DNA of 64,000 nt from Streptomyces griseoviridis (lineage in GTDB: Bacteria > Actinomycetota > Actinomycetes > Streptomycetales > Streptomycetaceae), in assembly GCF_005222485.1 (NCBI RefSeq), contig NZ_CP029078.1, forward strand, positions 5,855,501 through 5,919,500, read 5' to 3'. The notes beneath the pieces were generated by a model that was not told where the DNA came from, did no database searches, and was given only the letters and a program-made list of their open reading frames with translations. This document shows, piece after piece, positions 2,182 to 60,902 of this stretch. Each line of letters starts with the position of its first letter. Positions within the stretch are counted from its first letter, which is position 1. Made by a program: the position numbers and the translations under genes.

Positions 2182-3294
2182 GTGAGTTCCCCAGATCCTC
2201 AGGTTCGCGCAGCGCGAAACGAGTCAACCCGTCCCGCCTCGCGCGGGCCCGTCGTCGCGGTCACGGGCGCCGCGTCCGGAGTCGGAGCACTGCTCACCGA
2301 GCGGCTCGCCGCCTCGGACGAGGTCAAGCAGGTCATCGCGATCGACGAGCGGCGCGGCGACTGCGCGGCCGCCCAGTGGCACATCCTCGACGTCCGCGAT
2401 CCGGCCATCGCGGAGAAGCTGCGTGGCGCCGACGTGGTCGTGCACCTCGCGCTCGACCTCGACCTGGAGACCGACTCCGCCGCCCGGACGGCCTACAACG
2501 TCCGGGGGACGCAGACCGTGCTGACGGCCGCCGCGGCGGCCGGCGTCCACCGGGTCGTGCTGTGCACGTCCGCGATGGTCTACGGGGCGCTCCCGGACAA
2601 CGAGCTGCCGCTGTCGGAGGACGCGGAGCTGCGCGCCACGGCCGAGGCCACCGGCGTCGGCGACCTCCTGGAGATCGAACGGCTGGCCCGGCGTGCCCCT
2701 CGGGCGCACCCCGGGCTCAATGTGACGGTGGTCCGCCCCGCCGTCCTCGTCGGCGGCACCGACACCGCGCTGACCAGGTACTTCGAGTCGCCCCGGCTGC
2801 TGGTGGTCGCCGGTTCGCGGCCCGCGTGGCAGTTCTGCCACGTCGAGGACCTGTGCGGCGCCCTGGAGTACGCCGTCCTGGAGAAGGTCGACGGCGAACT
2901 GGCCGTCGGCTGCGAGGGCTGGCTCGAACAGGAGCAGGTCGAGGAGCTGAGCGGCATCCGGCGCATGGAGCTGCCGTCGGCGGTCGCCCTCGGGGCCGCG
3001 GCCCGGCTGCACCGGATCGGTCTGACGCCGTCCCCCGCCGGTGACCTCGCCTACACGATGTACCCCTGGGTGATCAGCGGGAGCAGGCTGCACGACGCGG
3101 GCTGGCGGCCCCGGTGGACCAACGAGGAGGTGCTCGCGGAGCTGCTCGCGGAGGTCTCGGGGCGGCACACGGTCGTGGGACGCCGGCTCGGCCGCAAGGA
3201 CGCGACGGCGGCGGGCGCGGCCGGTGCGACGGTGGCGCTGCTGGGCGCAGCGGCCGTGGTGCGGCGGGCCCGCAAGGCCCGGCGCCGGATCTGA
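2182..3294 (+). CDS. SDR-family NAD-dependent epimerase/oxidoreductase
   Basis: 370 aa from GTG 2182, preceded by GGAGA at 2171; the frame is open further upstream but without support. An N-terminal Rossmann fold has VTGAASGVG (TGxxGxxG dinucleotide loop) and an acidic AIDER after the second strand, favouring NAD. CTSAMVYG corresponds to the Ser/Tyr active-site strand of extended SDRs, but a lysine four residues after the Tyr is not seen, so catalysis may be atypical. Residues near 345-362 form a hydrophobic helix followed by a basic RRARKARRRI tail, suggesting C-terminal membrane anchoring. Substrate unknown. Confidence 0.8.
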   Translation: MSSPDPQVRAARNESTRPASRGPVVAVTGAASGVGALLTERLAASDEVKQVIAIDERRGDCAAAQWHILDVRDPAIAEKLRGADVVVHLALDLDLETDSAARTAYNVRGTQTVLTAAAAAGVHRVVLCTSAMVYGALPDNELPLSEDAELRATAEATGVGDLLEIERLARRAPRAHPGLNVTVVRPAVLVGGTDTALTRYFESPRLLVVAGSRPAWQFCHVEDLCGALEYAVLEKVDGELAVGCEGWLEQEQVEELSGIRRMELPSAVALGAAARLHRIGLTPSPAGDLAYTMYPWVISGSRLHDAGWRPRWTNEEVLAELLAEVSGRHTVVGRRLGRKDATAAGAAGATVALLGAAAVVRRARKARRRI

Positions 3295-3405
3295 ACCCGC
3301 GCGCGCGGGCGGGGCCGCTCCTGTAGGAGGCTCCAAGCGCGCACGCGCGCGTGCCGGGCGAACGTCGTATTCCGGGGTGTCGGACCGGTGAGGCACGATG
3401 GAGCC

Positions 3406-3864
3406 ATGGCACCCACCGACCATCCCGGCGAGCAGGCCGCCGACGACCCCGTCAAGCTGATCGCCGTCCGCGAGAGCCCGCTCTCCGTCGACGAGGTGTT
3501 CCGGGCCGTCGGGGACGCCGCCGCGGGCGGGACCGCGCTGTTCGTGGGCACCGTGCGCAACCACGACGGCGGCGCGGGTGTGGACCGGCTCGGCTACTCC
3601 TGCCACCCCGCCGCCGAGGCCGAGATGCGGCGGATCGCCGAGAAGGTCGTCGCCGAGTACCCGGTGCGCGCCCTGGCCGCCGTCCACCGGGTCGGTGACC
3701 TCGTCGTCGGGGACCTCGCGGTGGTCGTCGCCGTCTCCTGCCCGCACCGGGGCGAGGCGTTCGAGGCGTGCCGGAAGCTGATCGACGACCTCAAGCGCGA
3801 GGTGCCCATCTGGAAGCACCAGACGTTCTCCGACGGCACGGAGGAGTGGGTCGGCGCCTGCTGA
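3406..3864 (+). CDS. moaE: Molybdopterin synthase catalytic subunit MoaE
   Basis: 152 aa. MoaE transfers sulfur from MoaD thiocarboxylate to precursor Z, making the dithiolene of molybdopterin. Family features: GGTALFVGTVRNHDGG near the N-terminus, PHRGEAFEACRKLIDDLK in the middle, and VPIWKHQTFSDGTEEWVG at the end, holding the conserved active-site lysine of the PIWK motif. Length is normal. I chose ATG 3406 over the in-frame GTG at 3388 because it directly precedes the protein-like N-terminus. No moaD lies alongside, so the partner must be encoded elsewhere. Confidence 0.9.
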   Translation: MAPTDHPGEQAADDPVKLIAVRESPLSVDEVFRAVGDAAAGGTALFVGTVRNHDGGAGVDRLGYSCHPAAEAEMRRIAEKVVAEYPVRALAAVHRVGDLVVGDLAVVVAVSCPHRGEAFEACRKLIDDLKREVPIWKHQTFSDGTEEWVGAC

Positions 3865-4062
3865 TGCGGTTCCCCCCTCCGGTTGCGTAACCGCACCCCG
3901 GGTCGGAGCGTTGTCAGTGCGGATGGTTAATCTGCTGATCAGTCAGTTGTCTGTGATGATCCGCACGCACCTGTCCGCGCTCGCCCGTCCGCGCCCTCGG
4001 TGGCTCCCGGGCGAGCCTGTCCGCACACAGGTGTCCGCGTTCGTCTGGGTCGGGAGGTCGGC

Positions 4063-4227
4063 ATGGCGGCACTCGTCTGGTTGTTGATCCCACTGGTCGC
4101 CGCGGTCGGTGCCGGTCTGTGGGGGAGCTGGGCCAACCGCACCCGCAGGGCCCGCAGCGACGGCCCCGAGCTGGACGGCTACGCCCGCTTCCGGGCGGCC
4201 ATGGAGAAGTCCCACACCGGCACCTGA
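4063..4227 (+). CDS. Small single-pass membrane protein
   Basis: 54 aa. ATG 4063 follows GGGAGGT with good spacing. Residues 2-20 form one hydrophobic helix (LVWLLIPLVAAVGAGLW), followed by a basic stretch and an amphipathic tail ending ARFRAAMEKS. It sits 51 bp upstream of the PDZ/Lon-like gene on the same strand and may share its transcript. Function unknown; coding status rests on the ribosome binding site, codon use and clear membrane topology. Confidence 0.7.
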   Translation: MAALVWLLIPLVAAVGAGLWGSWANRTRRARSDGPELDGYARFRAAMEKSHTGT

Positions 4228-4278
4228 CGGACGTGGGGCTGACGGTGCGCCGACAGCTCCGTCCCGTACTGTCTTCGC

Positions 4279-5370
4279 ATGCCACGCCGCACCGCGACGA
4301 TGCTCGCCTCCACCCTGATGCTGATCGCGCTCCTGTGCGCGGGTGTGCTCACCCCCGTGCCGTACTCGGAGATGTCACCCGGGCCGACGGTGAACACCCT
4401 CGGGGACCACGACGGCGAACCGGTGCTCCAGATCTCCGGGCACAAGACGTACCCGACCAGCGGTCACCTGAACATGACGACCGTGCGGGTCACCAGTGCC
4501 GACTACCGCATGAACCTCGTCGAGGCGGTCTACGGCTGGCTCGCCCACGACAACAAGGTCGTGCCGCACGACACGCTCTACCCGGACGGCAAGACCGAGG
4601 AGCAGTCCACCCAGGAGAACGCCGAGGAGTTCAGCCAGTCCCAGGAGAGCGCCAAGGTCGCCGCCCTGAAGGAGCTGGACGTCCCGGTGCGGTCCTGGGT
4701 GATCGTCTCCACCGTCGTCAAGGGATCGCCCGCCGAGGGCAAGCTGCACGCCGGTGACGTCATCAAGGACGTCGACGGGACGGCCGTCAAGGAGCCCGCC
4801 GACGTCGCCAAGCTGGTGACCAAGCACAAGCCGGGCGAGAACGTCGTCTTCACGATCGTGCCGGCCAAGGAGCAGGCCGACGCCGAGAAGGAACAGCGCG
4901 AGACGGCCAGGACCGAGGAGATCACCGTCAGGACGGCGGCCTCCGACGACGGCGGCACCGAGCGGGCCGTCGTCGGGATCTCCGCCGGGACCGACCACAC
5001 GTTCCCGTTCACCATCGACATCAAGCTCGCCGACGTCGGCGGCCCGAGCGCGGGACTGATGTTCGCGCTCGGCATCTACGACAAGCTCACCCCCGGCAGC
5101 CTCACCGGTGGCGCGTTCGTGGCCGGCACCGGCACGATCGACGACGACGGCAAGGTCGGGCCGATCGGCGGCATCGAGATGAAGACGGTCGGCGCGCGCG
5201 ACAAGGGCGCCCAGTACTTCCTGACGCCCGCCGACAACTGCGCCGCCGCGGCCGAGGACACCCCGCACGGCCTCACCCTGGTCAAGGTGAAGACCATCGG
5301 CGACGCCCTCGGCGCCCTGAAGGACATCCGCGCCGGGGACACCGCCGACCTGCCGAAGTGCGGCACGTAG
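4279..5370 (+). CDS. YlbL-type PDZ and Lon-like serine protease
   Basis: 363 aa. An N-terminal membrane helix (about 5-27) is followed by an extracytoplasmic region, a PDZ domain (about 130-215) and a Lon (S16) proteolytic domain (about 235-355). The catalytic dyad is visible: Ser257 in GGPSAGL and Lys302 in GIEMKTVGA, with spacing as in Lon. Such proteins are membrane-anchored proteases acting outside the membrane; in Bacillus YlbL belongs to the DNA-damage/cell-division response, but the Streptomyces role is not shown here. The gene converges with the PPA1309-type gene, leaving 16 bp. Confidence 0.88.
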   Translation: MPRRTATMLASTLMLIALLCAGVLTPVPYSEMSPGPTVNTLGDHDGEPVLQISGHKTYPTSGHLNMTTVRVTSADYRMNLVEAVYGWLAHDNKVVPHDTLYPDGKTEEQSTQENAEEFSQSQESAKVAALKELDVPVRSWVIVSTVVKGSPAEGKLHAGDVIKDVDGTAVKEPADVAKLVTKHKPGENVVFTIVPAKEQADAEKEQRETARTEEITVRTAASDDGGTERAVVGISAGTDHTFPFTIDIKLADVGGPSAGLMFALGIYDKLTPGSLTGGAFVAGTGTIDDDGKVGPIGGIEMKTVGARDKGAQYFLTPADNCAAAAEDTPHGLTLVKVKTIGDALGALKDIRAGDTADLPKCGT

Positions 5371-5386
5371 CCGGCCGGGCGAGGCC

Positions 5387-5932
5387 CTAGTCCTCGAACG
5401 TCGCCGCCAGCGCCTGCGCCAGACCCGGTACCAGGTCCGCGCCCGTGAGCACCTCCGTCGGGGTGTCCTTCTCGCGCAGCCGGACCGCGGAGTCGCGGCC
5501 GCCGTCGCGCAGCGCCGCGACCGTCATCCTGACCTCCTGCCGCTCCGGGTGCGCGGCCACCCACTTCGCCAGCTTCGCCTCGTTCAGACCCTGGGGGACC
5601 TGCGCCTCGGCGGACGGCGGCAGCATCAGCCGCTCCACCGTGAGCGCGCAGCCGACCACCGCGTCGGGCCAGGCGATGGTGGCGAGGAACTCGTCGAGCG
5701 GCTTGCCCGCGGGGATCTCCTCCTGCTCGATCGGGGTGAGGGCGGCGGCCTCCCGCTCCTCGTCGGCCAGACCGAGCTGGGCCGCGAGGCCGGGTTCCTG
5801 GACCCGCAGCCGTGCGGTGTCGACGAGGGCGAAGAGGCGGGCGGGCTGGTCCCAGCCGAGGCCGGAGGCGTACTCGTCGATCTCGAGTACCGCCCGGGTG
5901 AGCGGGTTCGCCGCCATGGGAGTGTTGGACAT
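5387..5932 (-). CDS. PPA1309-family conserved actinobacterial protein
   Basis: 181 aa from ATG 5932. Soluble, alpha/beta, without membrane segments. It carries the conserved core ATIAWPDAVVGCALTVERLMLPP and a C-terminal VRLREKDTPTEVLTGADLVPGLAQALAATF. I recognise the actinobacterial family by its usual place next to the UPF0182 gene, but no biochemical function is known. The frame is open to 6217 without a supporting start; MSNTP fits family length. Divergent from the UPF0182 gene. Confidence 0.75.
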   Translation of the reverse strand: MSNTPMAANPLTRAVLEIDEYASGLGWDQPARLFALVDTARLRVQEPGLAAQLGLADEEREAAALTPIEQEEIPAGKPLDEFLATIAWPDAVVGCALTVERLMLPPSAEAQVPQGLNEAKLAKWVAAHPERQEVRMTVAALRDGGRDSAVRLREKDTPTEVLTGADLVPGLAQALAATFED

Positions 5933-29058: not shown

Positions 29059-29278
29059 TCGTATGTAGGTCGTACATTCGATCTGATGTGCGCACCCGTT
29101 GATCCATATTCAGTCACACAAGGGGAGGATCTAGGCGCCGTGGGGTAGTGAATGGAGCAAATCCGTTCCCAGAACGGTCAGTTGTAGTGCTGAATGGGAA
29201 CTGCGGGGATGCGCAACGGCGTGCGCCGGGTACAGCGGGAGGGGCGTACGCCAACTGGCGGCTGAGAGGGGTTTGTTC

Positions 29279-30358
29279 GTGCCTGCTTTCCCATACAGCA
29301 CCACATCGACAGTGACCGCGGTGCCACCCTCACTCTGTCTTCCGGTGATCGAGGCCGCGTTTCCCCGTCAACTGCACCCGTATTGGCCTCGGCTCCAGGA
29401 GAGGACCAGGGCCTGGCTGCTGGAAATGCGGCTCATGTCCGCCGACAAGGTCGCGGAATATGCCGACAGCCTGTGCTACACGGACTTGATGGCCGGCTAC
29501 TACCTGGGCGCCCCCGACGCGGTCCTCCAGGCGATCGCCGACTACAGCGCGTGGTTCTTCGTCTGGGACGACCGCCACGACCGCGACATCGTGCACCGCA
29601 GGCCCGCCGCCTGGAAGCGGCTCAGAGAACGGCTGCACACGGCCCTGGACGCCCCGCGCGACCACCTGCGCCACGAGGACCCCCTGATCGCGGGGTTCGC
29701 CGACGCCATGGTGCGGCTGTACTCGTTCCTGCCCGACAGCTGGAACGACCGCTTCGCACGGCACTTCCACGCGGTGATCGACGCCTATGACCAGGAATTC
29801 CACAACCGCACCGAAGGCGTCATTCCCACCGTCGACGACTATCTCGAACTGCGGCGGCTCACTTTCGCGCACGCGATCTGGATCGACCTGCTGGAACCGA
29901 GCGCCGGATGTGAGCTTCCGGACACCGTGCGGAAACATCCCGAATTCCAGCGGGCGGCCCTGCTGAGCCAGGAATTCGCCGCCTGGTACAACGACCTCTG
30001 CTCGCTTCCCAAAGAAATCGCGGGCGATGAGGTCCATAACCTCGGCATCAGCCTCATAAAACATGAGGAGCTGACTCTCGAAGAAGCGGTCGCCGAACTG
30101 AGGCGGCGGATCGAGCAGTGCATCCAGGAATTCCTGGCCGCCGAACGCGGAGCCTTACGTGTCGCCGACGAGATCGACGACGGCACGGTACGCGGAAAAG
30201 AGATCGCCGACGCGGTGAGAGCCTGCGTCGCGAACATGCGGAACTGGTTCAGTTCCGTCTACTGGTTCCACCACGAGTCCGGCCGCTACATGGTCGACAG
30301 CTGGGACGACCGGTCCACGCCCCCGTACGTCAACAACGAAGCGGCAGGTGAGAAATGA
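29279..30358 (+). CDS. cyc1: (+)-epi-isozizaene synthase (class I sesquiterpene cyclase)
   Basis: 359 aa. Cyclises farnesyl diphosphate to epi-isozizaene, precursor of the antibiotic albaflavenone. The aspartate-rich motif is DDRHD at 97-101 and the NSE motif NDLCSLPKE at 238-246; the C-terminus [27 protein letters not shown] end matches the S. coelicolor enzyme as I recall it. GTG 29279 has GAGAGGGG seven bases upstream; a TTG two codons earlier is possible. Overlaps the P450 gene by 4 bp. Confidence 0.95.
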
Positions 30359-31731
30359 CCGTCGAGTCCGCACAGCCCGAGTCCGGCACGCCGGCCTCCC
30401 CCGAACTGCGTGAACCACCCCTCGCGGGCGGCCGGGTCCCGCTGCTCGGCCACGGCCTGAGACTGGCCCGCGACCCGCTGGCCTTCCTGACCGGTCTGCG
30501 CCCGCACGGCGACATCGTCCGGCTGAAGCTCGGCCCCAAGACGGTGTACGCCCCCACCACCCCGGCACTCACCGGAGCGCTCGCCCTCAGCCCCGACTTC
30601 ATCATCGCGGGACCGCTCTGGGAGTCCCTCGAAGGACTCCTCGGCAAGGAGGGCGTGGCCACCTCGAACGGCCCGCTCCACCGCCGCCAGCGGCGCACCA
30701 TCCAGCCCGCGTTCCGGCTCGACGCGATCCCCGCCTACGGGCCGGTCATGGAGGCCGAGGCGCACGCGCTGACCAGGCGCTGGGAGTCGGGCGAGACCAT
30801 CGACTGCACCGCCGAGTCCTTCCGGCTGGCCGTCCGGGTCGCCGCCCGCTGCCTGCTGCGCGGCCCGTACATGGACCAGTGCGCCGAACGGCTGTGCGAC
30901 GCCCTCGCGACCGTCTTCCGCGGCATGTACCGGCGCATGGTGGTGCCGCTCGGGCCGCTCTACCGGCTGCCGTTCCCGGCCAACCGCGAATTCAACCGGG
31001 CGCTGGCCGATTTGCATCTCCTCATCGACGAGATCATCGCCGAGCGCCGGGCATCAGGTCAAAAGCCGGACGATTTGCTGACGGCATTGCTGGACGCGAA
31101 GGACGACAATGGCGACCCCATCGGGGAACAGGAGATCCACGACCAGGTCATCGCGATACTCACCCCGGGCGGCGAAACCATCGCCGCGACGATCATGTGG
31201 CTGCTCCAGGCACTCGCGGAACACCCGGAACACGCGGACCGCATCCGCGACGAAGTCGAATCCGTCACCGGCGGCCGACCGGTCGCATTCGAGGACGTCC
31301 GCAGGCTCACCCACACCAACAATGTCGTCGTCGAGGGGATGCGGCTCGGTCCCGCCGTGTGGATATTGACCCGGCGGGCGGTGGCCGACACCGAACTCGG
31401 TGGCTATCGCATTCCGGCCGGGGCCGACATCCTCTACAGCCCGTATGCGATCCAGCGCGACCCCAGGTCGTACCCGGACCACCTGGAGTTCGACCCCGAC
31501 AGGTGGCTTCCCGAGCGCGCCAAGGACGTGCCCAAATACGCCATGAGCCCGTTCAGCGTCGGCAATCGGAAGTGCCCGGGAAGCGACTTCTCGATGGCTC
31601 TGCTGACGCTCGTCACGGCCGCGGTGGCCACCAGGTACCGGCTCGAGACCGCGCCGGGCTCCGACGGCACCCCGCACGTGGGGGTCACGCTGCGCCCGCA
31701 CCGGCTGCTGCTGAAGGCGATCCCGCGGTGA
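30355..31731 (+). CDS. cyp170A: Cytochrome P450 CYP170A (albaflavenone synthase)
   Basis: 458 aa. Oxidises epi-isozizaene twice at C5 to albaflavenone. ExxR is E327-R330 (EGMR); heme Cys407 lies in [10 protein letters not shown]; the I-helix reads [13 protein letters not shown]170A1 of S. coelicolor also makes farnesene with a terpene synthase site inside the P450; the required DDxxD is present here as D250-DNG-D254, and a preceding DDLLTALLD resembles the NSE/DTE motif with Glu replaced by Asp. ATGA overlap with the synthase gene shows a two-gene operon. Confidence 0.95.
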
Positions 31732-57000: not shown

Positions 57001-57092
57001 CTACCCGTGTCACTTCAGCCGGCCCCGGACCCGCCCGTGTCACTTCAGCCGGCCCCGGACCCCCGCCCGCGTCACTTCAGTCGGTCCCGGAC
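57001..57092. repeat. Three tandem 30-32-bp repeats of the amidase 3' end
   Basis: Units 57001-57030, 57031-57060 and 57061-57092 share GTGTCACTTCAGCCGG or a close variant and end in CCCCGGAC or TCCCGGAC. The unit at 57061 contains the last codons and TGA of the amidase gene; the other two are copies lying beyond the stop. Confidence 0.92.
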
Positions 57093-57662
57093 CCGGCCGC
57101 GCATCCACGCCATCGTGAAGCCGCGCGGGTCGACCTTGCCCGGCTGCCACTCCAGATGACCGATCACCGACCGCTCCGTCCAGCCGTGGTGGCGGCAGAC
57201 GGCCGCGGCGACCTGCTCGATCGCCTCCAGCTGCGCCTGCGGCCAGGGGTCCTTCCCGTCGCCGAGGTTCTCGCACTCGAAGCCGTAGAAGTGCGGGTTC
57301 CCGTCGGTGTTCGACTCGTTCTCGGGCGGCAGCGCCTTCTCCGCGATGACCGCGCGCAGCACGTCGTCGTCGCCGAGCCCGGCGTGGTTGGCGCGGCCGT
57401 AGCCGACCAGGTGGACCTTGCCGTCCTTGGTGATGACGCCGTGGCAGAGCGGGCCCGGCAGATCCTCGTGGCCGTCCCGGCAGAGCGTGACCGTCTTCGC
57501 GGTGCCGCTCGTCACCGTGTGGTGGATCATCACGCCGTGCACGGGACCCCACGGCCCCTTCTCGTTGCGGTTGTGGTGCTGCCAGTCGCCGACCTCGACG
57601 ACGGTGACGCCCTCGGCCTTGAGGGCGCGCAGGAACGTGCCCGCGGACATGGGTGAGGCCAT
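57072..57662 (-). CDS. Peptidoglycan N-acetylmuramoyl-L-alanine amidase
   Basis: 196 aa, amidase_2/PGRP fold. Zinc ligands: MIHHTVTSG (His), and GHLEWQPGKVDP (His and later Asp/Cys position), with NHAGLGDDDVLRAVIAE and FYGFECENLGDGKD between. No signal peptide is evident from ATG 57662; an in-frame ATG 57785 would add 41 basic residues that are also not a signal. It may be phage-derived or act in cell-wall turnover. GGGGCGG precedes the chosen start. The gene's end lies in a tandem repeat. Confidence 0.85.
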   Translation of the reverse strand: MASPMSAGTFLRALKAEGVTVVEVGDWQHHNRNEKGPWGPVHGVMIHHTVTSGTAKTVTLCRDGHEDLPGPLCHGVITKDGKVHLVGYGRANHAGLGDDDVLRAVIAEKALPPENESNTDGNPHFYGFECENLGDGKDPWPQAQLEAIEQVAAAVCRHHGWTERSVIGHLEWQPGKVDPRGFTMAWMRGRVRDRLK

Positions 57663-57992
57663 GACCGCCCCTTTCTTCCGTGCTGCGACGACGGCCGTCG
57701 TGCACGGCCGCTCGTACCGCTGCTTGTACCGGAAGGAGACCGTCCGCATGCCTTGTTCGGACCGCGTGCGACTCGATCCGGACATCAGGTGGCGGGGGAG
57801 TGGGGGAGTTCGGCCTGTTTGGGTGGATGCGCGAACCCCCGGGGACGCTGATCATGCCCCGGTCGGAGGTGGTCCATTCCCGCTCTTTCGGGTAATAGCA
57901 TCAGCACGCTCCGTGATGAAAGGGTTGCCCGTGAGCACGTTGATGCGCCGGAGCGCGAAGGCGTCGGCGTTGACAGGGAGGGCAATTCTCAT

Positions 57993-59399
57993 ATGTCGGT
58001 AGGCGAAGAGGTCCGTACGGAGCAGGACAAGCCGCAGCAGAGCCTCGGCACTGCCGCCGCGCGGAACCTGGCCACCACGACCAAGTCCGCGCCGCAGATG
58101 CAGGAGATCAGCTCGCGCTGGCTGCTGCGCACGCTGCCGTGGGTGAATGTGCAGGGCGGCGCGTACCGGGTGAACCGGCGCCTCACCTACACCGTGGGGG
58201 ACGGCCGCATCACGTTCGTGAAGACCGGCGACCGGGTCGAGGTCATCCCGGCGGAGCTGGGCGAGCTGCCCGCGCTGCGCTCCTACGACGACGAGGAAGT
58301 CCTCGCCGAACTGGCCCAGCGGTGCAGGCAGCGGGAGTTCGCCCCCGGGGACGTGATCGTCTCGGACGGCACCCCGACCGACGAGGTCTACCTGCTCGCC
58401 CACGGCCGGGTGGAGCGGGTCGGTACCGGCCCCTACGGTGACGAGGCGGTCCTCGGAGTCCTCGCCGACGGCGCCTACTTCGGCGAGGCCGCCCTGCTCT
58501 CCGACGACGCCGTCTGGGAGCACGGCGCCCGCGCGGTCACCGCCTGCACGGTCCTCGCCCTCTCCCGTCAGGACGTCCAGCAGATCGCGGAGCGCTCGGA
58601 CTCCCTGCGGGACCACCTGGCCGCGGTCCGCGCGATCCCGGAGCAGAGCACCAACAAATACGGTGAGAAGGCCGTCGACCTCGCCGCGGGCCACAGCGGC
58701 GAGCCCGACATCCCGCACACCTTCGTCGACTACGAGGCCCGCCCCCGCGAGTACGAACTGAGCATCGCGCAGACCGTCCTGCGCATCCACTCGCGCGTCG
58801 CCGACCTCTACAACCAGCCGATGAATCAGACCGAGCACCAGTTGCGGCTCACCGTCGAGGCGTTGAAGGAGCGCCAGGAGCACGAGCTGGTCAACAACCG
58901 GGAGTTCGGGCTGCTCCACAACTGCGAGTACGACCAGCGCCTCCAGCCGCACGACGGTGTGCCCAGCCCCGACGACCTGGACGAGCTGCTCAGCCGGCGG
59001 CGCGGCACCAAGCTGCTGCTCGCCCACCCGCGCGCGATCTCCGCGATCGGCCGCGAGTTCAACAAGCGCGGACTGGTGCCCGAGACCATCGACGTGGCCG
59101 GCAACCGCATCCCGACCTGGCGCGGGGTGCCGATCTACCCGTGCAACAAGATCCCGGTCACCGAGGCCCGCACCACCTCGATCATCGCCATGCGTACCGG
59201 CGAGGCCGAGCAGGGCGTGATCGGCCTCCACCAGACGGGTCTGCCGGACGAGATCGAGCCGAGCCTGTCCGTGCGCTTCATGGGCATCAACGAACAGGCG
59301 ATCATCAACTACCTGGTGACGGCCTACTACTCGGCCGCCGTCCTCGTGCCGGACGCGCTCGGCGTGCTGGAGAACGTCGAGATCGGCCGCTGGAGGTGA
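57993..59399 (+). CDS. Family 2B encapsulin shell protein
   Basis: 468 aa. An N-terminal arm ([19 protein letters not shown]) is followed by an HK97-fold shell domain interrupted by a cyclic-nucleotide-binding-like domain (about residues 95-215: [38 protein letters not shown]). The rest ([47 protein letters not shown] and onward) is the encapsulin shell typical of family 2. The shell protein assembles into hollow protein particles. The next gene encodes its cargo. GGGAGGG precedes ATG 57993. The 330-bp gap to the divergent amidase gene holds no other gene I can support. Confidence 0.92.
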
Positions 59400-59511
59400 C
59401 GTTTTTGCACCTCGGAGCCGTGTTCCCGCCCGCACGGGCGGGTACATCTCCGTCGTACACGTCCGGCGGTGGTCCGGGCGCGGTGTCCGAGCGCTGTCCG
59501 AGGGAGACCCC

Positions 59512-60576
59512 ATGGCCGAGCTGACGGCGGAGGCACAACCCCTGGAAGGATCCGAGGCGACGGCGATCCTGGAGCGTGCCCGCGCCGTCGTCGACCCGGA
59601 GATGCGGGCCGCCGTCGACTCACTGCCCGGCTCCCTCCGCAGGATCGCCCGCTACCACTTCGGCTGGGAGCACGCGGACGGCACCCCGGCGGACGGCAGC
59701 GCGGGCAAGGCGATCCGTCCCGCGCTGGTCCTCACCGCGGCCGGCGCCCTCGGCGGCTCGCGGGCCAGGGAACGGGCGGTCCGGGCAGCGGTGGCGGTGG
59801 AGCTGGTCCACAACTTCACCCTGCTGCACGACGACGTCATGGACCGGGACCCCACCCGCCGCCACCGGCCCACCGCGTGGACGGTGTTCGGGGACGCCGA
59901 CGCCATCCTCGCGGGCAACGCCCTCCAGGCGCTGGCCCTGCGGCTGTTCGCGGAGGACCCGCACCCGGCGTCCGCGCAGGCCGCCGTCCGGCTCACCGAG
60001 TGCGTCATCGAGCTGTGCGCCGGACAGCACGTCGACACGGCGATGGAACTCCGTTCGCCGACGGACGTCTCCCTCGCCGAGGTGCTGACGATGGCCGAGG
60101 CCAAGACGGGCGCGCTGCTCGGGTGCGCCTGCGCGCTGGGCGCGCTGTACGCGGGCGCGGACCACGAGGACGTGGAGGCGCTGGACGCGTTCGGCCGGCA
60201 GGCCGGGCTCGCCTTCCAGCTCATCGACGACGTGATCGGCATATGGGGCGATCCGCACCGCACCGGCAAGCCGGCCGGCGCGGATCTCGCGGCCCGCAAG
60301 AAGTCCCTGCCGGTGGTGGCCGCGCTCACCTCCGGCACCCCGGCCTCGGCGGAGCTGGCCGAGCTGTACGCGCTGCCCTGTGTCGAGGGCGACCAGGAGG
60401 CGGTGGAGCGGATCGCGCTGGCGGTGGAGCGGGCCGGCGGCCGGGACTGGGCGCAGGTCGAGGCGGCCGACCGGATGGCCCGCGCGATGCAGGAACTGTC
60501 CCGCGCCGTTCCCGAACCGGAGTCCGCCGGCGGCCTGTTGGCGCTCGCGGAGTTCGTGACCCGGCGCAGCAGCTGA
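59512..60576 (+). CDS. Polyprenyl transferase, encapsulin cargo
   Basis: 354 aa. Trans-isoprenyl diphosphate synthase: GKAIRPAL for IPP binding, first Asp-rich motif DDVMDRD at 107-113 and second DDVIGIWGD at 239-247. Product chain length cannot be read safely. The first 35 residues are not part of the enzyme fold and probably act as the loading segment for the neighbouring encapsulin. Linked to the shell gene by 112 bp on the same strand. Polyprenyl transferases are one of two known cargo types of family 2B shells. Confidence 0.92.
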   Translation: MAELTAEAQPLEGSEATAILERARAVVDPEMRAAVDSLPGSLRRIARYHFGWEHADGTPADGSAGKAIRPALVLTAAGALGGSRARERAVRAAVAVELVHNFTLLHDDVMDRDPTRRHRPTAWTVFGDADAILAGNALQALALRLFAEDPHPASAQAAVRLTECVIELCAGQHVDTAMELRSPTDVSLAEVLTMAEAKTGALLGCACALGALYAGADHEDVEALDAFGRQAGLAFQLIDDVIGIWGDPHRTGKPAGADLAARKKSLPVVAALTSGTPASAELAELYALPCVEGDQEAVERIALAVERAGGRDWAQVEAADRMARAMQELSRAVPEPESAGGLLALAEFVTRRSS

Positions 60577-60660
60577 GAGGTTCCAGGGGGTACGGAGTCC
60601 CCGAAGTCACCGAGGCCGCGCGGACCTGACCCCGCGCGGCCGTCGGCGGCCTCGGCCCGG

Positions 60661-60695
60661 CGGGTCCCGCGCATCCCCACGATGCGCGGGGCCCG
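60661..60695 (+). terminator. Terminator after the encapsulin cargo gene
   Basis: 15-bp stem with one G-T pair, left arm CGGGTCCCGCGCATC, loop CCCAC, 84 bp beyond the stop. Confidence 0.85.
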
Positions 60696-60711
60696 TCCAC
60701 ATGAATGGGAC

Positions 60712-60742
60712 CTCAACCCCCTTGCATTGCAGAGGGGTTGAG
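60712..60742. promoter_or_regulatory. 31-bp near-perfect palindrome upstream of the DUF952 gene
   Basis: CTCAACCCCCTTGCA-T-TGCAGAGGGGTTGAG, two mismatched positions in 15-bp arms. It lies 161 bp before the DUF952 start and 17 bp after the terminator. A strong operator or transcript hairpin; regulator unknown. The 326-bp gap 60577-60902 otherwise holds the terminator only. Confidence 0.55.
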
Positions 60743-60902
60743 CGCGAGGCAGACGAGGACCGCATGCCGTGGCGGCGAGGGACGACGGAAAGCCGCGCTC
60801 AGAAACCCGACACTCATCGACGTCCGCGCCGCCTGCCCGCCTGCCCGCGAAGTGCTCGCCGGGGAATGGTGGTCCCGACGCCGAGGCTCGTACGGTGGCC
60901 CC

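Follow-up and report, generated by a model that had tools for sequence, protein, structure and literature searches.

Encapsulins of family 2B have been connected with terpenoid enzymes in earlier studies. The survey of Andreas and Giessen (2021; PMC8346489), in its accessible parts, counts 900 operons in which the shell gene accompanies a polyprenyl transferase (PT), of which 888 are from Actinobacteria, and 165 systems that combine a terpene cyclase with a PT; it also describes geosmin synthase (GS)-like cyclases within family 2B operons and proposes the consensus GPTGLGTSAAR as a loading motif. The accessible part of a second study (PMC7251104) reports that geosmin synthase is linked to 'cnb' genes in Cyanobacteria and Deltaproteobacteria. 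Here we describe a shell gene and the prenyl-diphosphate synthase gene that follows it in a 64,000-nucleotide stretch of the Streptomyces griseoviridis genome (contig NZ_CP029078.1, positions 5,855,501 to 5,919,500), called the window below. An earlier reading of the letters, the original prediction, had named the pair a family 2B encapsulin with a polyprenyl transferase as its cargo. It was right in its core: both open reading frames lie where it had placed them, their products score above the cut-offs of the NCBIfam models NF041163 and NF041169, and both NCBIfam and the literature have a name for such a pair already.

Earlier work covers the family, its pairing with a PT, the name of the cargo, clusters of cyclase and PT, and clusters of geosmin synthase and cnb; hundreds of pairs like that of the window exist. 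The point of possible interest is which partner the pair has. We found no purpose in the literature for PT encapsulins that lack a neighboring cyclase. Most of the Streptomycetaceae geosmin-synthase-type genes examined here are without a linked shell, yet in other Actinobacteria and in Cyanobacteria and Myxococcota a shell adjoins the same cyclase. The explanation that we tentatively favor, at slightly under an even chance, is that a 2B shell of the known type and a short-chain prenyl-diphosphate synthase form a compartment that feeds a non-adjacent cyclase, likeliest the unlinked geosmin-synthase-type one. The one-component encapsulin would assemble as a T=1 HK97-type shell, as its solved relatives do, and the co-operonic synthase, judging by its fold, its motifs and a Phe at position -5, would condense isopentenyl diphosphate with an allylic diphosphate to give farnesyl diphosphate (FPP) or geranylgeranyl diphosphate (GGPP). 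Conserved adjacency suggests that the synthase may be held in or on the shell. The compartment would then supply a cyclase encoded elsewhere, the likeliest candidate being a motif-bearing geosmin-synthase-type protein 1.0 Mb away. Should these two orphans prove to be partners, a very common Streptomyces shell would have a testable function, and family 2B would have a case of cargo that is loaded from distant loci. In the accessible part of the open-licence PMC literature, we found no proposal of loading in trans or of a PT-linked Streptomyces shell that serves an unlinked geosmin synthase.

The shell gene and its neighboring synthase gene

The shell protein matches NF041163 (family 2B encapsulin shell) over model positions 1 to 450 of 450, with 770.8 bits against a cut-off of 400 (E = 5e-232). 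Pfam adds PF19307 (452 bits), which covers the HK97-fold part, and PF00027 (72 bits). The full-length family match and the HK97-type capsid domain together place the protein in the shell family, and the cyclic-nucleotide-binding domain (CBD)-like part precedes the HK97 core, which is the domain order of family 2B (Table 1). Among PDB sequences the top three matches, 9bhu (E = 5e-202), 9bix and 9bje, are full-length and score 639 to 675 bits, and the rest stay under 300 bits. We take these three to be 2B encapsulin entries and 9bhu to be the 2-methylisoborneol (2-MIB) shell, the PDB names being generic. In the host genome (8.96 Mb, one contig), the window shell is the sole protein above the NF041163 cut-off; two further matches, of 41 and 20 bits, fall far under it.

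The synthase matches NF041169 ('family 2 encapsulin nanocompartment cargo protein polyprenyl transferase') with 489.3 bits (E = 6e-147, cut-off 450), and it also matches PF00348 and the PDB entry 3nf2 (E = 5.7e-77). Most of the NCBI-named proteins among the 120 relatives listed, out of 6546 public ones, bear the NF041169 cargo name; polyprenyl synthetase and geranylgeranyl diphosphate synthase also occur as names.

Table 1. Features of the shell-synthase pair (window coordinates).
Feature	Coordinates	Strand	Basis or remark
Family 2B encapsulin shell protein, 468 aa	57993..59399	+	NF041163, PF19307 + PF00027; best PDB sequence matches 9bhu/9bix/9bje
N-arm segment SLGTAAAR (residues 17-24)	58041..58064	+	word shape resembles cyclase motif GPTGLGTSAAR
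Inserted CBD-like domain (residues 114-201)	58332..58595	+	PF00027
W175, near-invariant Trp beside the CRP-arginine column	58515..58517	+	Trp in 58/61 shell rows
HK97-fold part (residues 216-466)	58638..59390	+	PF19307
Short-chain prenyl-diphosphate synthase of IdsB kind, putative cargo, 354 aa	59512..60576	+	NF041169, PF00348, 3nf2
N-terminal tail MAELTAEAQPLEGS (residues 1-14)	59512..59553	+	sole stretch outside the enzyme fold at the N-terminal end
First Asp-rich motif DDVMD, after HNFTLLH (Phe at -5)	59830..59844	+	alignment
Second Asp-rich region DDVIG	60226..60240	+	alignment; Gly replaces the last Asp

The two genes are on the same strand, with the synthase 112 bp downstream, and this arrangement is the rule. 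A shell gene lies upstream on the same strand at all 30 NF041169 loci that scored best across 150 same-genus genomes (not a random draw), and a downstream synthase with the same orientation accompanies the shell in 55 of 56 picked single-shell genomes (gap between profile matches 93 to 614 bp, median 221). One of the 55, G612, has a partial synthase match that stays under the cut-off; in the lone exception, G463, a geosmin-synthase-type cyclase takes the place of the synthase, 89 bp from the shell. Among the 150 genomes, 147 have a shell above its cut-off and 114 have NF041169 above its own. The pairing of shell and synthase is far above chance. In a tree of 61 shell rows, 58 of them different, 28 PT-linked shells including that of the window form one clade with a Shimodaira-Hasegawa-like approximate likelihood ratio test (SH-aLRT) value of 100, and 8 GS-linked rows are placed outside it. 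All 28 members carry a PT in the fetched flank, which argues that shell and synthase stayed together.

A scan of positions 57700-60750 for promoters and terminators gave nothing that exceeded shuffled sequences. An amidase-like gene (N-acetylmuramoyl-L-alanine amidase, PF01510) at 57072-57785 is divergent from the shell gene. Within flanks of 1.5 kb, such an amidase is present at 6 of 12 PT-linked shell-centred loci and a DUF952 gene at 5 of 30 PT-centred loci, the remaining loci being unable to show them or not PT-linked; from these counts, neither was taken as a part of the system, although the amidase might still belong to it.

Unlinked cyclases and a recurring module

The original prediction had also stated that no terpene cyclase adjoins the pair, and had concluded that a freestanding function is likely. 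Locally the statement is correct as far as PF19086 shows, the one general cyclase family used in the genome-wide search: the match nearest to the pair is the epi-isozizaene synthase gene 27.6 kb upstream (29273-30358). The search returned four cyclase-domain places in the genome, namely this synthase, one elsewhere, and two that are the halves of one two-domain protein encoded at 6916351-6918450, which is the unlinked candidate named above. Against NF041168 ('family 2 encapsulin nanocompartment cargo protein terpene cyclase') this protein scores 1156.8 bits, under the cut-off of 1200, and we therefore call it geosmin-synthase-type by its two cyclase domains and its motif, and not a proven member; the NF041168 cut-off is passed in 9 of the 150 same-genus genomes. 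Between its domains it carries the motif as APTGLGTSAV.

The surroundings of such cyclases elsewhere bear on a partnership. We collected the best 80 of 573 cyclase loci matched by a query cyclase from beyond the genus, with families assigned by record title; they span Actinobacteria, Cyanobacteria, Myxococcota and one gammaproteobacterium. Outside the Streptomycetaceae, a 2B-like shell lies within 600 bp of the cyclase at 40 of 45 of these loci (at one of the five others, L201, the sequence ends 688 bp past the cyclase), and at 22 of the 45 a prenyl-diphosphate synthase lies within 4 kb as well. Shell and synthase are both near the cyclase at 17/22 loci of other actinobacteria, 5/18 of cyanobacteria, 0/4 of myxobacteria and 0/1 of the remainder, and 7 of the 22 synthases are at least 50% identical to one of three queries. 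Within the Streptomycetaceae, a shell is close at 3 of 35 loci, and 3 of the 32 without one have a flank shorter than 500 bp on one side. In a sample of the phylum, cyclase, shell and synthase are contiguous, in varying order, in all three cyclase-bearing genomes from outside the genus; two of these modules have genes of the methylerythritol phosphate (MEP) pathway nearby, one adjoining IspH and DXS and the other lying close to IspG. Shell, synthase and cyclase are thus a recurring module, which is split in Streptomyces. Among the 56 picked single-shell genomes the position of the cyclase is known in 33: on the shell contig at a distance of at least 0.89 Mb in 14, on another contig in 18, and adjacent in 1 (G463). 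No such synthase was present in the 18 to 19 kb fetched at each of four loci of the genus whose shell is GS-linked (G463, G043, G086 and G531).

The motif is widely retained as well. By a loose pattern, a motif-shaped word is present in 15 of 15 cyclases of the phylum sample and in 78 of the 80 in the collection. A rule-based count over 71 cyclase loci located the motif in the linker at 56 of them and a C-terminal motif at 47. The rules could not place 11 of the 71, as two anchors were wanting, and each of these has at least one motif word.

More than one kind of enzyme seems to have taken the place of the synthase in this module, since the geosmin-type cyclase and shell of ten loci from Planotetraspora, Nonomuraea and Sinosporangium (L180, L181, L182, L192, L209, L226, L229, L240, L251, L252) stand with a different prenyl synthase, which has the motif CHAGLLIHDD and is only 29 to 34% identical. 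On the contig of one geosmin-type module (L172), a second, more divergent 2B-like shell (42% identity) at 2472-5439 adjoins an aminotransferase class V protein, probably a cysteine desulfurase. Another cluster (L176, 2528-9775) holds two shells, a methyltransferase, an NF041167 cyclase (537 bits; presumably of the 2-MIB type) and a prenyl synthase with Trp at -5.

Could the compartment stand alone, its synthase making a linear isoprenoid diphosphate for a purpose of its own and serving no cyclase? The absence of a PF19086 cyclase within 27 kb would fit this, as would the separate clade of PT-linked shells, the unlinked state of the cyclase at 32 of 35 Streptomycetaceae loci, and the retention of the cyclase in genomes without a PT-linked shell. 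However, shell and prenyl synthase are near the cyclase at 17 of 22 loci of other actinobacteria, and the unlinked cyclase of this genome keeps its loading motif. The likeliest partner is present and merely unlinked, and the step from no adjacent cyclase to a freestanding function was weak given the 22 of 45 loci, and the three of three genomes, in which shell, synthase and cyclase occur together; we regard the freestanding explanation as unlikely.

The cyclase and the shell also go together across genomes. Matches were scored at an E value of at most 1e-100, with the shell of the genus sample scored by its cut-off, and the order, genus and phylum samples partly overlap. In the order sample of 245 genomes, the cyclase occurs in 235 and the shell in 239; no genome with the cyclase is without the shell, and 6 lack both (Fisher p = 7e-10). 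The genus sample contains 146 genomes with both, 1 with the cyclase only, 1 with the shell only and 2 with neither, and in the phylum sample of 296 genomes all 15 that bear the cyclase have a shell, with 2 more having the shell only. We read the association as real but only partly specific, and as one with any 2B shell.

Several results weigh against a dedicated partnership between the PT-linked shell and this cyclase. Four of the 239 shell-bearing genomes of the order lack a geosmin-type cyclase, and the cyclase-only case of the genus (G102) consists of a fragment of the cyclase where a contig begins, in a draft of 1420 contigs. A control cyclase, epi-isozizaene synthase, is missing from the same genomes: it was found in 0/10 cyclase-less genomes against 31/56 picked ones (p = 0.001), and in 0/6 shell-less genomes against 31/60 (p = 0.03), so lineage or genome reduction contributes to the association. 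We counted independent pairs on a tree of the synthase paralog from 40 genomes, which includes 5 of the 6 shell-less ones (G437 has no paralog match) and, with its long branches, is a poor species tree. On it the shell label requires 5 changes, and the supported branches provide only 3 independent pairs; the cyclase follows the shell in about 1.8 of the 3 pairs and never does the opposite, which is not significant. Among 36 same-genus genomes without NF041169 above its cut-off, 34 keep the cyclase, and 33 of these 34 have another 2B shell; the cyclase does not require the PT-linked shell in every genome. The linker word is missing at 4 of the 71 cyclase loci, one of which has no motif word at all.

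These observations bear on a more specific proposal, which we consider possible but doubtful. In Streptomyces genomes with no 2B shell but the PT-linked one, that shell may serve as a shared compartment for making geosmin, an earthy odorant, in which the neighboring synthase would supply FPP and geosmin synthase, encoded about 1 Mb or more away, would be loaded in trans via GxGTSA; elsewhere another 2B shell would substitute. The interdomain GxGTSA of the cyclase resembles the LGT[SA]AAR of the shell N-arm and may dock in its place. We hypothesize that the two words could mimic each other at one docking site; in the alignment, L[GSA]TxAAR is present in 58 of 61 shell rows. Other actinobacteria would have kept the module of synthase, shell, cyclase and some MEP genes, and Streptomyces would have split it with the function retained.

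The epi-isozizaene synthase of the window (NF045483, 723 bits, cut-off 675) overlaps a cytochrome P450 gene by 4 bases, and the two form the albaflavenone pair (29273-31731); the P450 matches NF051859, a model for bifunctional albaflavenone monooxygenase/terpene synthase, with 831 bits. The distance from the shell to this synthase is about 21 to 35 kb where both are on one contig, which fits conserved chromosome order. A direct link between them was not adopted, as the synthase is missing from 25 of the 56 picked genomes that have the shell and the geosmin-type cyclase.

Loading, product and the inserted domain

The loading of either enzyme is putative, and for the synthase its N-terminus bears on the matter. 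The original prediction had seen an extra, non-enzymatic N-terminus, which shrinks here to 12 to 14 disordered residues. The enzyme fold is reached from residue 13 in the IdsB model and from residue 15 in 3nf2 and in a paralog of the same genome, so that residues 15 to 63 belong to the enzyme even though the Pfam domain starts only at 64. In an AlphaFold model built from a 30-row alignment (mean predicted local distance difference test score, pLDDT, 86.8), the only stretch of at least 3 residues with pLDDT under 50 is 1 to 12, and a helix begins at 14. Tails in 119 homologs, the window synthase included, measure 12 to 75 residues (median 33), and only one is shorter than the 14 residues found here. 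A comparison with the tail of the paralog was dropped because its start codon is uncertain, the nearer candidates lying 1, 13, 16 and 37 residues before the aligned part. PT enzymes are described in the accessible part of PMC8346489 with 50 to 100 disordered N-terminal residues, and the window synthase has no such domain. The NF041169 model does not require a long N-terminus, so the cargo label stands and the argument for loading becomes weaker.

The same evidence raises the possibility that the synthase is no cargo at all but a cytosolic, co-transcribed precursor enzyme, with the shell loading only motif-bearing cyclases. The very short tail would agree with this, as would the absence of the cyclase-type motif (LGT[SA]A or TGLGT) from the synthase and its homologs (0/120), the cyclases having it; the survey PMC8346489, in its accessible parts, likewise reports no conserved targeting motif in PT enzymes. 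Both the short tail and the missing motif count against the compartment that we favor. On the other side, 72 of 120 homologs open with a peptide like MAEFMTE, followed by a variable linker, and this short peptide could be a tag; the window synthase starts with MAELTAE, which does not match, and has no linker. The adjacency to the shell in 55 of 56 picked genomes also speaks for a cargo role, and we judge a purely cytosolic synthase to be improbable.

For the product, the fold and the motifs point to C15 to C20, that is, FPP or GGPP. F102, D107, D108 and D111 are invariant across 30 aligned homologs. The second Asp-rich region reads DDLLG or DDILG in the paralog and in four other aligned relatives. 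The residue at -5 of the first Asp-rich motif matters for chain length, and by this rule the Phe would suit the same range. In 10 IdsB-like synthases near geosmin-type cyclases the residue is Phe in 7, Tyr in 1 and His in 2, and in one synthase near a 2-MIB-type cyclase it is Trp; the two sets compared have no near-identical overlap, and these are too few for the residue to decide between FPP and GGPP. A C15 product would fit geosmin, and a C20 product would not.

The CBD-like insertion noted in the original prediction is present as the PF00027 domain; a role in binding cyclic nucleotides, however, fits it poorly. An Arg belongs to the phosphate-binding cassette of cyclic-nucleotide-binding domains. 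In one alignment, with approximate column placement, Val174 occupies the column of this Arg in a CRP-like protein of the same genome, so called from its match to the CBD part and by eye; that protein has its Arg one column ahead of W175 and a gap at W175. The cassette Arg is absent from the window shell. The positions after the Trp are usually E, Y/F, T, A/V and R, and the window shell departs from the Y/F and T with H177 (3/61 rows) and G178 (1/61); W175 to G178 are encoded at 58515-58526. For a relative, a 2025 paper reports, in its accessible part, an insertion domain with the CBD fold that does not bind cyclic nucleotides and for which another ligand may exist; a closed particle of about 28 nm is known from the same source. 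These electron microscopy and ligand facts come from relatives of the shell and not from the window protein, which tempers their use for the compartment proposed here. Because of Val174 and W175 at the Arg site and of that report, a cyclic nucleotide is the less likely ligand, and the insert, probably a divergent domain, would have some other ligand or no ligand at all. The older EshA literature would suggest that the shell protein is mainly a regulator or nucleotide sensor, with the synthase incidental, and the PF00027 insert is in keeping with this. The family match across the full model, the 2B encapsulins as nearest PDB sequences, the Val in place of the Arg with a conserved Trp beside it, and the reported lack of cyclic-nucleotide binding in the relative (accessible part) all speak against it, and we find it very improbable.

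Comparison with described systems

The putative polyprenyl synthetase 3nf2 and the paralog in this genome (G000:C1:7707442-7708455; 47% identity from residue 15 of the window synthase onward) belong to the same enzyme subfamily. The paralog, with 403 bits, stays under the NF041169 cut-off of 450 and lies away from the only shell of the genome, whereas the window synthase is above the cut-off and beside the shell. The shells of 9bhu, 9bix and 9bje are homologous to the window shell over the full length and have an identical domain order; the linked cargo of 9bhu is a cyclase, whereas the neighbor here is a prenyl synthase.

The pair resembles the family 2B PT systems, which the accessible part of PMC8346489 describes in Actinobacteria as a shell with a CBD insert beside a PT; the window pair has this arrangement, with NF041163 and NF041169 both above their cut-offs. 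The clusters of geosmin synthase and shell (geoA and cnb; PMC7251104, accessible part) share the shell family of the window, often with a prenyl-diphosphate synthase nearby. In those clusters the cyclase is linked to the shell, whereas in the window system the cyclase is unlinked and the shell belongs to a separate, PT-linked clade.

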